From Eubacterium sp. (lineage in GTDB: Bacteria > Bacillota > Clostridia > Lachnospirales > Lachnospiraceae), in NCBI GenBank assembly GCA_017539165.1, contig JAFYHN010000042.1, forward strand, positions 1 through 46,116: DNA of 46,116 nucleotides. The letters run 5' to 3'. How positions within the stretch are numbered: position 1 is the first letter of the stretch; every line of letters starts with the position of its first letter. Below are positions 22,735 through 27,067 of the stretch, in pieces. The notes beneath the pieces are model-generated. The model was not told the origin of the DNA and ran no database searches. It worked only from the letters and a program-made list of their open reading frames with translations. Position numbers and translations under genes: made by a program.

Positions 22735-22758
22735 TGTTTGTCCGGAAGGGAGAAGGAT

Positions 22759-24762
22759 ATGCAAGTCTATGTATCGGCTTCCGCAGTCCGGAGTGGTTGT
22801 GGAAGTAAAGATGCACCATTTAAGACAATCAATGAAGCAGCACAGATTGCAGAGCCTGGTGATGAAGTTTTGGTTGCTCCAGGAATCTACAGAGAATATG
22901 TCTGCCCTGCACATGCGGGAACAGAGAAAGATCGTATTGTATATCGTTCGATAGAACCACTGGCTGCTGTCATTACTGGTGCGGAACAGATTAAGAAATG
23001 GGACCTCTTTGACGGGGATACCTGGCTTGCTAGGATTCCGAACGGTTTGTTCGGTGAATACAATCCCTATATAGAAACACTTCGGGGTGACTGGTATCTT
23101 CAGCTTTGGCCTGCTCACACCGGAGAGGTTTATCTGAATGGACGATCCATGTACGAGGTGGCATCACTGAAAGAAGTGTTGAATCCGCAGATCTTGCGTA
23201 AATCCTGGGATCCGGAAGGTACTAAGTATCAATGGTTCACAGAGCAGGAGGACGGTGTTACACTTATTTATGCCAACTTTCGTGGCATAGATCCTAACCA
23301 GGAAAATGTTGAAATAAATGTGAGACGTAATTGTTTTTATCCGGATCGTAGTGGTGTTGACTACATCACCGTGAGTGGTTTTACAATCCGTCAGGCTGCG
23401 ACACAGTGGGCGCCGCCTACAGCTTATCAGGATGGAATGATCGGACCTCGTTGGTCGAAAGGATGGGTTATTGAAGACTGCGAGATATCCGATTCTAAAT
23501 GCAGTGGAATTTCACTTGGTAAGTATCTCCAGCCTGATAATGAAAACAAGTGGTCTACGGGTTTTATCAAAGATGGTGCTCAGAATGAGAGAGATGCCAT
23601 CTGTCTGGCATTGATTGAGGGTTGGACCAAGGAGAATATTGGCTCGCATATTGTTCGACGTTGTAATATTCATGATTGCGGACAAGCCGGGATTGTCGGT
23701 CATTTGGGAGGCGTCTTCTCAACAATAGAAGATAATCATATACATCACATAAACAATAAGCAGGATATAAACGGAGCAGAGAACGCTGGAATCAAGATGC
23801 ATGCAGCAATTGATGTGGTGTTCCGCCGTAATCATATACACCATTGTACACGTGGTCTATGGCTTGATTGGCAGGCACAGGGAACCAGAGTGACCGGTAA
23901 TCTTTTCCATGACAATACTCCACCGGATGGAACGGAGATCACCATGGAACTGGCTATTGGTGAAGATTTATTTATTGAAGTCTCACATGGTCCTACGTTG
24001 GTTGACAACAATCTTTTGCTTTCTGATGTGGCCTGTAGACTAAGTACGCAGGGTTTGGCATTTGTCCATAATCTGATTGCAGGATCATTTACCTTTGTCG
24101 GTGAAGGAGTAGATAGTGGTGGCAAACGTTTTACCAATATGCGGTATACGCCATACCATTTGCCTCATCGTACGGAAATACTTGGCTTCATGTCGATTCT
24201 GCATGGAGATACGCGATTCTATAATAACATTTTCCTTCAGAAGCCTATACGACCTCTTTTGACTGAGGGGGCGAAAAAACTTGGGCTTGATCGTATAAGT
24301 GCGATGAACTTCGCTTGTGGTACATTTCCTTATGACGGCTATCCGGATGAGGAAAGTTATCTGGCACAGTTTGCTGCTGAGAGTTTCATGTCATTGGATG
24401 GACGTGATAAGTATTACGATCATCTTCCAATGTATTTTGGAGGAAATGTATATTGTAACGGTGCAAAGCCTAGCGATGGAGATGAGGATGCATGTACGAT
24501 TCAGCAGGATATTGAGCTGTCACTTACAGAGTCTGACGGTGCACCTGTTTTGAAAACAAATTTATATGAGTATTTACGTCCGAGTTCTACCGGTATTATT
24601 TCTACGGCACTCCTCGGACAGGCTTTTGAACCAGAACAACGCTTTGAGAAGCCGGACGGAACGGCTATCGTATTTGATACGGATTATCTTGGGGCACACA
24701 GAGAAGTTCTTCCGCTAGCCGGTCCTTTTGCGGCATCTCCGGGAGATACAGCACTTTTCTAA
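22759..24762 (+). CDS. Beta-xylosidase, glycoside hydrolase family 120
   Basis: A cytoplasmic enzyme of about 667 residues that should release xylose from short xylo-oligosaccharides. The fold is a right-handed parallel beta-helix with many short repeats such as HIHHINNK and RNHIHHCT. Segments that I recall from Thermoanaerobacterium XylC are present, including WAPPTAYQDGMIGPRWSKGW and GIVGHLGGVFS. Asp370 in GLWLDWQAQGTR matches the nucleophile and Glu407 in IEVSHGP matches the acid/base. Between them is a loop of about 15 residues (TPPDGTEITMELAI) longer than in XylC. ATG 22759 has AGGGAGAAGG upstream; the in-frame TTG at 22738 is rejected. There is no signal peptide. Confidence 0.88.
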   Translation: MQVYVSASAVRSGCGSKDAPFKTINEAAQIAEPGDEVLVAPGIYREYVCPAHAGTEKDRIVYRSIEPLAAVITGAEQIKKWDLFDGDTWLARIPNGLFGEYNPYIETLRGDWYLQLWPAHTGEVYLNGRSMYEVASLKEVLNPQILRKSWDPEGTKYQWFTEQEDGVTLIYANFRGIDPNQENVEINVRRNCFYPDRSGVDYITVSGFTIRQAATQWAPPTAYQDGMIGPRWSKGWVIEDCEISDSKCSGISLGKYLQPDNENKWSTGFIKDGAQNERDAICLALIEGWTKENIGSHIVRRCNIHDCGQAGIVGHLGGVFSTIEDNHIHHINNKQDINGAENAGIKMHAAIDVVFRRNHIHHCTRGLWLDWQAQGTRVTGNLFHDNTPPDGTEITMELAIGEDLFIEVSHGPTLVDNNLLLSDVACRLSTQGLAFVHNLIAGSFTFVGEGVDSGGKRFTNMRYTPYHLPHRTEILGFMSILHGDTRFYNNIFLQKPIRPLLTEGAKKLGLDRISAMNFACGTFPYDGYPDEESYLAQFAAESFMSLDGRDKYYDHLPMYFGGNVYCNGAKPSDGDEDACTIQQDIELSLTESDGAPVLKTNLYEYLRPSSTGIISTALLGQAFEPEQRFEKPDGTAIVFDTDYLGAHREVLPLAGPFAASPGDTALF

Positions 24763-24913: not shown

Positions 24914-24941
24914 TTCACAACTCGTAAATATGTGGTACAAT
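24914..24941 (+). promoter_or_regulatory. Promoter of metG
   Basis: TTCACA (24914-24919) and TACAAT (24936-24941), 16 bases apart. Transcription would begin near 24948, just where the first leader helix begins, which supports both calls. Confidence 0.6.
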
Positions 24942-24950
24942 GACATACAG

Positions 24951-25052
24951 CGCTTTGCTTTATAAGCTTTAGACTTTGTACGGATGAGTTCCATTAGCTT
25001 ATACAAGTGCGAATAATACGGGGTTCATTTCCCCGAAGGTAAAGCAAAGGAG
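24951..25052 (+). ncRNA. Structured metG leader RNA, possible cis-regulator
   Basis: Three paired elements fill the leader. CTTTGCTTTA (24953-24962) pairs perfectly with TAAAGCAAAG (25040-25049), whose end overlaps the Shine-Dalgarno AAAGGAG (25046-25052). ATAAGCT (24962-24968) pairs with AGCTTAT (24996-25002). CGGGG (25019-25023) pairs with CCCCG (25031-25035). In addition TTGTA (24976-24980), in the loop of the second helix, can pair with TACAA (25002-25006) just downstream, a pseudoknot layout. The outer helix would hide the ribosome-binding site. I see no T-box or SAM-I core. Pairings are read by eye; ligand and function are unknown. Confidence 0.5.
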
Positions 25053-25063
25053 AATTAAAGAAT

Positions 25064-27067
25064 ATGTCAAAAAGACCTTATTACATTACAACAGCTATAG
25101 CCTATGCATCCGGTAAGCCTCATATTGGTAATACCTATGAGATTGTTCTTGCAGACAGTATTGCAAGATACAAGAGATTTATCGGATATGATGTTCGTTT
25201 TCAGACGGGAACGGATGAGCATGGCCAGAAGATTGAAACCAAGGCGTTTGAAGAACTCAATACACCTAAGGAATTCGTCGACGAGAAGGCAACTGAGATT
25301 AAGCGTATATGGGATCTTATGAATACTTCTTATGACAAGTTCATCAGAACAACGGATGAGTATCATGAGAAACAGGTTCAGAAGATATTTAAAAAGCTTT
25401 ATGATCAGGGAGACATTTATAAGGGGTCTTATGATGGATTGTACTGTACACCATGTGAATCATTTTGGACTAAATCCCAGCTTGTAGATGGATGTTGTCC
25501 TGATTGTGGAAGACCTGTAAAGGAAGCTTCTGAGGAAGCATATTTCTTCAAGATGAGTAAGTATGCTCCAAAGCTTATCAAGTATATTGAGGATCATCCA
25601 CAGTTTATTCAGCCTGAATCAAGAAAGAATGAGATGGTTAATACATTTCTTAAACCGGGACTTCAGGATCTCTGTGTTTCAAGAACATCATTCAAGTGGG
25701 GTATTCCTGTAGATTTTGATGACAAGCATGTTGTATATGTATGGATAGATGCACTTTCAAACTATATCACTGGTCTTGGATATGATGTGGATGGAAATAA
25801 TGATCCACTTTACGATAAGTACTGGCCGGCAGATCTTCATCTGATAGGAAAGGATATCCTTAGATTCCATACTATCTATTGGCCAATCATGCTCATGGCT
25901 CTTGGAATTCCACTTCCTAAGCAGGTATTTGGACATCCATGGCTTATCCAGAGCGATGGTAAGATGAGTAAGTCTCGCGGAAATGTACTTTATGCCGATG
26001 ATATGGTTGATCTTTTTGGAGTAGATGCAGTTAGATACTTCCTTCTTCATGAGATGCCTTTTGAGAATGATGGTGTGGTTTCATGGGAGCTTCTGATTGA
26101 GAGAGTTAACTCTGATCTTGCCAATACATTAGGTAACCTGGTAAATAGAACTATCTCAATGTCGAATAAATACTTCGATGGAGTAGTAACAAATACAAAT
26201 GTTACTGAAGAAGTTGATGATGATCTTAAGCGAGTTGTTGGAGATACAAGACTCCGTGTAAATGATTGCATGGATAAACTCCGTGTAGCAGATGCCATGA
26301 CAGAAGTATGGAATCTGTTTAAGAGATGTAACAAGTATATAGACGAAACAATGCCTTGGGTACTTGCAAAAGATGATTCAAAGCAGGCTAGACTTAATAC
26401 TGTTCTTTATAACCTTATAGAGAGTATTACTATAGGGGCTACGCTTCTTGAAGCATTTATGCCTGAAACATCTGAGAAGATACTCAAGCAGTTGAATACA
26501 GAGAAGAGAGCGGTTACTGAGCTTGGTCAGTTTGGACTGTATCCATCAGGAAATAAGGTTACTGATGAACCAGAAATCCTTTTTGCCAGAATAGATACAG
26601 CTCAGATGCTTGCTGAGATAGAGAGACTCTTCCCGCCAAAGGAGCCTAATCCAATAGATCCTGAGGAGATAAAGAAAAAGAAAGAGGCTAAGGAGAAAGA
26701 AGACAAGAAACAGCCTGCTTCAGTAGATGCAGTTCAGAAAGCTGTAATAAGCATTGATGATTTTGATAAGCTTCAGCTTCAGATTGGTGAAGTGCTTTCT
26801 TGTGAAGAAGTTCCAAAGTCTAAGAAACTTATATGTTCACAGGTTCAGGTTTCCGGAAAGGTTCTTCAGATTGTTTCGGGAATAAAGAGTTATTATAAAC
26901 CTGAAGATATGGTAGGTAAGAAGGTTGTTGTTATAACAAACCTTGCGCCTGCAAAACTTGCTGGTGTCCTGTCAGAAGGAATGCTCCTCTGTGCAGAGGA
27001 TGAAGATGGAAATCTTTCACTTTTAACTTCAGATAAGGATATGCCTGCAGGATCAATGATCAGTTAA
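25064..27067 (+). CDS. metG: Methionine--tRNA ligase
   Basis: A class I aminoacyl-tRNA synthetase that charges tRNA-Met for initiation and elongation. The 667-residue product has the HIGH-type motif PHIGNTY (residues 19-25), a zinc knuckle with CTPC and CCPDC near residues 127-150, KMSKS at 300-304, and a helical anticodon-binding domain. A charged linker (KKKKEAKEKEDKK) near 545-560 leads to a C-terminal OB-fold tRNA-binding and dimerisation domain (ISIDDFDKLQLQIGEV onward). All parts expected of the Bacillus-type enzyme are present. Translation may be controlled by the leader at 24951-25052. Confidence 0.97.
   Translation: MSKRPYYITTAIAYASGKPHIGNTYEIVLADSIARYKRFIGYDVRFQTGTDEHGQKIETKAFEELNTPKEFVDEKATEIKRIWDLMNTSYDKFIRTTDEYHEKQVQKIFKKLYDQGDIYKGSYDGLYCTPCESFWTKSQLVDGCCPDCGRPVKEASEEAYFFKMSKYAPKLIKYIEDHPQFIQPESRKNEMVNTFLKPGLQDLCVSRTSFKWGIPVDFDDKHVVYVWIDALSNYITGLGYDVDGNNDPLYDKYWPADLHLIGKDILRFHTIYWPIMLMALGIPLPKQVFGHPWLIQSDGKMSKSRGNVLYADDMVDLFGVDAVRYFLLHEMPFENDGVVSWELLIERVNSDLANTLGNLVNRTISMSNKYFDGVVTNTNVTEEVDDDLKRVVGDTRLRVNDCMDKLRVADAMTEVWNLFKRCNKYIDETMPWVLAKDDSKQARLNTVLYNLIESITIGATLLEAFMPETSEKILKQLNTEKRAVTELGQFGLYPSGNKVTDEPEILFARIDTAQMLAEIERLFPPKEPNPIDPEEIKKKKEAKEKEDKKQPASVDAVQKAVISIDDFDKLQLQIGEVLSCEEVPKSKKLICSQVQVSGKVLQIVSGIKSYYKPEDMVGKKVVVITNLAPAKLAGVLSEGMLLCAEDEDGNLSLLTSDKDMPAGSMIS

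Follow-up and report, generated by a model that had tools for sequence, protein, structure and literature searches.

An anticodon-like CAU hairpin conserved in metG leaders of a Lachnospiraceae genus is a candidate operator for methionyl-tRNA synthetase

Introduction

What controls the methionyl-tRNA synthetase (MetRS) gene of this Eubacterium species, and what reads the leader that precedes it? The gene, metG, lies within the 46,116 nucleotides of contig JAFYHN010000042.1 that we analysed (the window). MetRS reads CAU in its tRNA (PMC9976931, passage on methionine identity), and according to section 45 of that source, control of the Escherichia coli thrS operator passed from threonyl-tRNA synthetase (ThrRS) to MetRS when its anticodon-like sequence was changed to that of methionine. 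A sequence-only reading of the window had described the metG leader as structured, able to hide its own ribosome-binding site and devoid of recognisable riboswitches, and had named methionine, S-adenosylmethionine (SAM), tRNA and the synthetase itself as possible controllers. We followed up that reading within the window, across the genus and beyond it.

Results

The metG leader is structured and carries two CAU hairpins

The metG product has the catalytic, anticodon-binding and C-terminal tRNA_bind domains of a MetRS, and it is the only full-length MetRS match in the genome. Among the solved structures related to it are 2csx and 2ct8, which we take to contain tRNA. The open reading frame ahead of metG (positions 22738 to 24762) matches a glycoside hydrolase 120 insertion domain and a beta helix, with TTG as a possible start codon.

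The leader folds better than chance. The stretch from 24940 to 25070 has a predicted energy of -35.1 kcal/mol compared with a mean of -23.3 kcal/mol for dinucleotide shuffles (z = -3.74), and none of 200 shuffles was as stable. All three helices proposed earlier can be read in the sequence. The outer helix (P1), which joins CTTTGCTTTA to TAAAGCAAAG, is perfect over its ten pairs and extends into the Shine-Dalgarno sequence, and the proposal that a structured leader could cover the ribosome-binding site is supported. The second helix, in which ATAAGCT (24962 to 24968) can pair with AGCTTAT (24996 to 25002) over seven pairs, did not hold up: it is absent from the best fold of the same stretch, it competes with the conserved hairpin at 24984 to 25002, and its 5' strand is not preserved in relatives (judged by eye, uncounted). 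Nor is a pseudoknot required between TTGTA (24976 to 24980) and TACAA (25002 to 25006), since this pairing can nest around the conserved hairpin.

Transcription may start near 24948 to 24950. A promoter-like site does lie just upstream of the leader (Table 1), but two such sites were found near the leader against 2.5 expected in shuffles, so their frequency is about that of chance. In relatives, a box resembling TAAAAT or TACAAT stands some 6 to 8 nucleotides 5' of an invariant AGCGCTTT (by eye). In the leaders of G024, G053, G058, G008 and G031, a TATAAT-like box is followed immediately by a strong hairpin and a run of T, 5' of the CAU hairpin (by eye); in G024, this hairpin at the start of the leader reads CGGGTAGAC...GTCTGCCCG TTTTT, a terminator-like stem.

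The content of the loops had been overlooked. Two hairpins of the leader present the methionine anticodon, CAU, at the place in the loop that an anticodon takes (Table 1). For the conserved one, the best fold in the window shows a 5-nucleotide loop, and an extra U-A pair may form across the loop. The second had no counterpart in 11 close relatives, where a 19-column gap, present in 11 of 11, overlaps its 5' half (the 3' alignment being poor). One tRNA(Met) gene of the window genome, presumably the elongator, has the loop UUCAUAC, which resembles UUCAUUC and UUCAUUA among the mRNA loops. The leader as a whole was not significantly similar to either of the two CAU tRNA genes found (65 of 500 and 51 of 500 shuffles were as good), and no initiator tRNA was recognised among the 23 loci scanned of the 34 tRNA matches in the genome.

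Table 1. Positions of the features of the metG leader and gene in the window.
Feature	Positions	Strand	Basis
Promoter-like site TTCACA-16-TACAAT, TG ahead of the second hexamer	24914..24941	+	sequence scan
Outer helix P1, 5' strand CTTTGCTTTA	24953..24962	+	sequence, best fold, strand-swap test
Conserved anticodon-arm-like hairpin, 5' stem ATGAGT	24984..24989	+	covariation, 25 distinct sequence windows of 29 leaders
Loop of the conserved hairpin, 7 nt, TCCATTA; CAU (24992-24994) at anticodon position 34-36	24990..24996	+	core conserved in the genus
Conserved hairpin, 3' stem GCTTAT; a U.G pair closes the loop	24997..25002	+	covariation
Second hairpin CGGGG-TTCATTT-CCCCG; 5-bp stem (25019-25023 with 25031-25035), 7-nt loop (25024-25030), CAU at 25026-25028	25019..25035	+	sequence, triplet detector
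Outer helix P1, 3' strand TAAAGCAAAG, overlapping the Shine-Dalgarno sequence	25040..25049	+	sequence, best fold
Shine-Dalgarno sequence AAAGGAG	25046..25052	+	sequence
metG, methionyl-tRNA synthetase, 667 aa	25064..27067	+	domain matches and sequence

The CAU loop is conserved and its stem covaries within the genus

With CAU in the loops, mimicry of an anticodon arm predicts that relatives should keep the loop while the stem drifts yet stays paired. Our genus sample comprised 61 genomes, 55 of them with a metG match at the cut-off, and the leader was obtained for 52. A detector open to any triplet, which required a loop of 6 to 7 nucleotides on a stem with 5 or more pairs and no fewer than 4 Watson-Crick pairs, was applied to leaders of 130 nucleotides. 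It returned a CAT-loop hairpin in 23 of the 52 leaders, against 8 for the next best of the 64 triplets and a mean of 0.8 (maximum, 4) in shuffles. The core YCAT[TA]HG, a pattern that itself fixes CAU and the G after the loop, was present in 36 of the 52 leaders within 80 nucleotides of the metG start, and the runner-up among the 64 triplets reached 10; the core lies 27 to 73 nucleotides 5' of the start codon. An early detector, which required TCAT and a stem with 4 or more of 5 positions paired, had given scattered matches in 6 of 80 named relatives, with no pattern.

Sorted by loop, 29 of the 52 leaders have 7 nucleotides and 7 have 6, and the core is missing in 16 (for example in G012, G027 and G003). 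Among the seven-base stretches at the core, the commonest is ATCATTA (8 leaders), followed by TCCATTA (7), TTCATTC (5), CCCATTC (4) and TTCATTA (4), others being rarer. At base 37, 35 of 36 loops have U, whereas both CAU tRNA genes found have A. An Rfam scan of all 16 core-less loci and one core-bearing locus, many with only about 300 nucleotides upstream, gave no match at the gathering threshold. G012 and G027 apparently have a very short leader directly after a promoter-like box (by eye).

Covariation was measured on gapless segments anchored on the core without regard to pairing; 29 leaders gave 25 distinct rows and 125 cells, the rows being related leaders whose counts are not independent events. 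The stem was paired in 89.6% of cells versus 56.0% in shuffles, two-sided changes occurred in 46 cells versus 13.3, and the covariation score was 0.841 versus 0.193 (0 of 500 shuffles reached the observed value in each case). Slid versions of the alignment were at most 42.4% paired. Compensatory changes affect four of the five stem pairs, and the fifth, adjoining the loop, is U.G in all rows but one. Measures that count pairs or pair types showed no excess over shuffles (411 of 500 and 295 of 500). The 6-nucleotide-loop form (7 leaders), closed by C-G, covaries too (6 of 500 shuffles on the score). The compensatory changes in relatives that the sequence-only reading called for thus exist, but they fall mainly in a hairpin that it had not listed (24984 to 24989 with 24997 to 25002). 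Leaders of different groups otherwise do not align (by eye), and the loop is their sole shared part.

Tandem CAU hairpins were found by the strict detector in 4 of the 52 leaders, those of the window, G016, G025 and G034, and the last three belong to the 6-nucleotide-loop form. For any other triplet, there were no tandems within 80 nucleotides, and within 130 nucleotides two triplets had one leader each.

A proposed model of autogenous control by MetRS

The leader is probably an autogenous translational operator for MetRS that works through mimics of the anticodon arm beside the Shine-Dalgarno sequence. In this model, the hairpin at 24984 to 25002, joined in the window species by the one at 25019 to 25035, would copy the anticodon arm of tRNA(Met) as a stem of 5 to 6 bp and a 7-nucleotide loop with CAU at positions 34 to 36. 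An excess of MetRS over its tRNA would lead the anticodon-binding domain of the enzyme to occupy the hairpin or hairpins; bound MetRS, together with P1 running into the Shine-Dalgarno sequence, would exclude the ribosome, and metG translation would drop. With abundant uncharged tRNA(Met), or with little MetRS, the leader would be free and metG would be translated. We infer the binding of MetRS to the leader, the repression and the idea that two arms serve one dimer. Several points were counted against a MetRS operator, namely, the U at base 37, a C at base 33 in 15 of 36 loops, the seven 6-nucleotide loops and the 16 core-less leaders, and also the background level outside the genus, the lack of similarity between leader and tRNA and the possible 5-nucleotide loop in the window.

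Among the controllers suggested at the outset, the synthetase itself is the one that our results favour. Nothing in our results supports methionine or SAM, and sensing of tRNA by codon-anticodon pairing is unlikely because the loops present the anticodon, CAU, which is unable to pair with the identical anticodon of tRNA(Met).

For the outer helix, covariation gives moderate support. In a strand-swap test of 12 long leaders in 6 groups, 13 of 720 permutations of the P1 strands (A-D) paired as well as the leaders' own combination, and in a looser pooled test the own strand was best in 3 of 16. An extension of the MetRS-operator reading, with which it can hold together, is that the long leaders form a two-state switch in which strand A, AGCGCUUUGU, pairs either with C, ACAAAGUGCU, or with D beside the Shine-Dalgarno sequence, the state being selected by MetRS binding. 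The A-C pairing is strong in energy, is the best duplex of A in G022, G026, G029, G042 and G047, and excludes the outer helix in these leaders; A-D is present in the folds of G026, G029 and G042. In the same strand-swap test, however, neither A-C (198 of 720 permutations as good) nor the B-C pairing P2 (520 of 720) showed covariation, and we consider such a switch unlikely.

The hairpin is restricted to metG at the sensitivity used

We built a covariance model of the hairpin from these metG leaders and ran it over the 61 genomes (E ≤ 1). Of its 30 matches, 22 fall in metG leaders; the remaining 8 are within open frames, 186 to 366 codons long, on either strand. The E values are weak (0.06 to 1 per genome), and the search filters lose members, with 22 of the 29 model rows recovered and the window's own hairpin lost; at this sensitivity, no other gene's leader in the 61 genomes scored comparably. 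A DNA search of 146 genomes with the leader aligned, besides the leader itself, only the metG leaders of G022 and G026, from the same genus, the remaining matches being 20 to 36 bases long and elsewhere. The same search in phages gave no match.

We also looked at thrS leaders of the genus, in a sample of 30 loci out of 55 genomes with a thrS match. None of the 30 had a CAT hairpin, and threonine triplets in hairpins of these leaders were not raised (1 to 2 of 30). A T-box core was found by regular expression in 21 of 30, and 1 of 5 scanned with Rfam scored over the threshold. In the window genome, a T-box match lies directly upstream of thrS (G000:C14:84511-86599); the genome has six T-box matches, two above the cut-off, and none is on the metG contig (C31).

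This restriction bears on two further readings. The CAU loop could kiss the metG start codon and hide it, with no need for a protein, given that CAU is complementary to AUG. In 34 of 36 leaders the start codon is followed by G, and this AUGG can pair with YCAU. Such a contact of four or five pairs would be weak, and AUG is common to nearly all genes, yet every model match outside open frames is at metG and none of the 30 thrS leaders has a CAT hairpin. U37 is moreover kept in 35 of 36 loops even though 12 of 36 leaders have, directly before AUG, a C or T that is unable to pair with it; because of this constancy, we regard start-codon kissing as distinctly unlikely. Alternatively, some other protein or a small RNA could recognise the YCAUUA hairpin and control metG. 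Neither base 37 nor the U.G closing pair agrees with the tRNA(Met) gene, as if set by a different reader. At the sensitivity used, however, metG is the sole gene at which the hairpin was found, and the invariant triplet of the hairpin is the one that MetRS reads in tRNA (PMC9976931, passage on methionine identity). We consider another reader very unlikely.

Outside the genus, metG is often preceded by a T-box core

Beyond the genus we scored 168 leaders, which came to 160 distinct ones after removal of 2 genus members and 6 duplicates; they represent 78 named contigs (not all Lachnospiraceae) and 82 genomes of the family. CAT hairpins were at background in this set (3 of 160 within 80 nucleotides; the median triplet had 2), and the core occurred in 9 of 160 compared with 36 for TTT. 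A T-box core was found before metG by regular expression in 59 of the 160. Nine loci picked from a list of regular-expression hits all matched the T-box family RF00230 (E ≤ 5.5 × 10−8), four of them above the gathering score, and two of the nine (L032 and L040) are titled Floccifex and Holdemanella.

The leader of the window yielded nothing credible in an Rfam scan at gathering and relaxed thresholds, including the T-box (RF00230), SAM and other riboswitch models, in agreement with the earlier remark that no known T-box, SAM-I or other riboswitch core could be seen in it. That metG is a methionine gene so often headed by a T-box core elsewhere would suit a small-molecule riboswitch (methionine, SAM) or a divergent T-box, but either is most improbable in a short leader that has no T-box core and no terminator-like site on its own + strand, that carries the anticodon and not the codon, and in which short hairpins alone appear to be conserved, an aptamer-like core being absent.

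Some out-of-genus candidates (L075, L168/G062, L236/G224 and G414/L291) are leads only. G224 (L290/L236) has two CAU hairpins before metG, with loops CUCAUCG and UCAUCC and GC-rich stems, and its congener G414 (L291) has a similar loop, CCAUCC, before metG, again on a GC-rich stem. G062 (L168) has two CAU hairpins in the 140 nucleotides before metG, one with an 8-nucleotide loop. Its congener G413 (L289) has a T-box-like 3' end and a terminator-like run, cut off by the contig end, and a weak Rfam T-box match (20.3 bits; E = 0.09). An exchange of one device for the other between G062 and G413 is possible.

Discussion

A metG leader that presents a methionine anticodon resembles the E. coli thrS operator in working principle; we claim no sequence kinship. 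As in thrS, an anticodon-like hairpin with the cognate triplet, the one that the enzyme reads in tRNA, lies in the synthetase's own leader 5' of the Shine-Dalgarno sequence. A second anticodon-like arm is seen in 4 of the 52 metG leaders. The thrS pattern of a 7-nucleotide loop with the cognate anticodon at positions 34 to 36, upstream of the gene's own Shine-Dalgarno sequence, is found at metG, as is a constant loop on a stem that changes in compensatory fashion. The differences are the enzyme and triplet (MetRS and CAU), the phylum and the single short hairpin of most metG leaders. The thrS operator with a methionine anticodon was artificial (section 45 of PMC9976931), whereas that of metG would be natural. 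The same section describes eukaryotic synthetases that bind their own mRNAs by anticodon mimicry; the principle is shared, but the layout of those sites is different, and in eukaryotic messages there is no Shine-Dalgarno sequence to cover.

The T-box (RF00230), which stands before metG in several other genera, likewise ties leader control of metG to the supply of tRNA(Met). It reads uncharged tRNA through a codon-like specifier, often in conjunction with a terminator. The metG leader described here differs in presenting the anticodon itself, in having no terminator-like site on the + strand and in matching no Rfam family. The absence of an Rfam family is perhaps due to there being only about seven conserved bases.

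An evolutionary reading of these data is tentative, and we would put it somewhat below an even chance. In a large genus of the Lachnospiraceae, and perhaps in lone species elsewhere, T-box control of metG by tRNA sensing may have been replaced by anticodon-arm mimics that bind MetRS. Second arms would then have arisen more than once, in the window species and separately in the 6-nucleotide-loop leaders, possibly so that one MetRS dimer holds both. Gain, loss and subclade are here readings of leader similarity.

In the literature that we searched (open-licence papers), we found no report of a natural anticodon mimic at a bacterial metG, and the only bacterial synthetase gene that section 45 of PMC9976931 names as controlled through anticodon mimicry is thrS of E. 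coli. The CAU hairpin of metG, conserved and covarying across a genus, would add a second example from bacteria, at a gene for which other genera use the T-box. If the model is true, the genus would provide in nature what was made artificially when the E. coli thrS operator was altered to respond to MetRS, and some 36 natural stem and loop variants are available from which to learn what MetRS needs beyond CAU. It would also mean that an RNA that senses tRNA can be exchanged for a decoy that binds protein.
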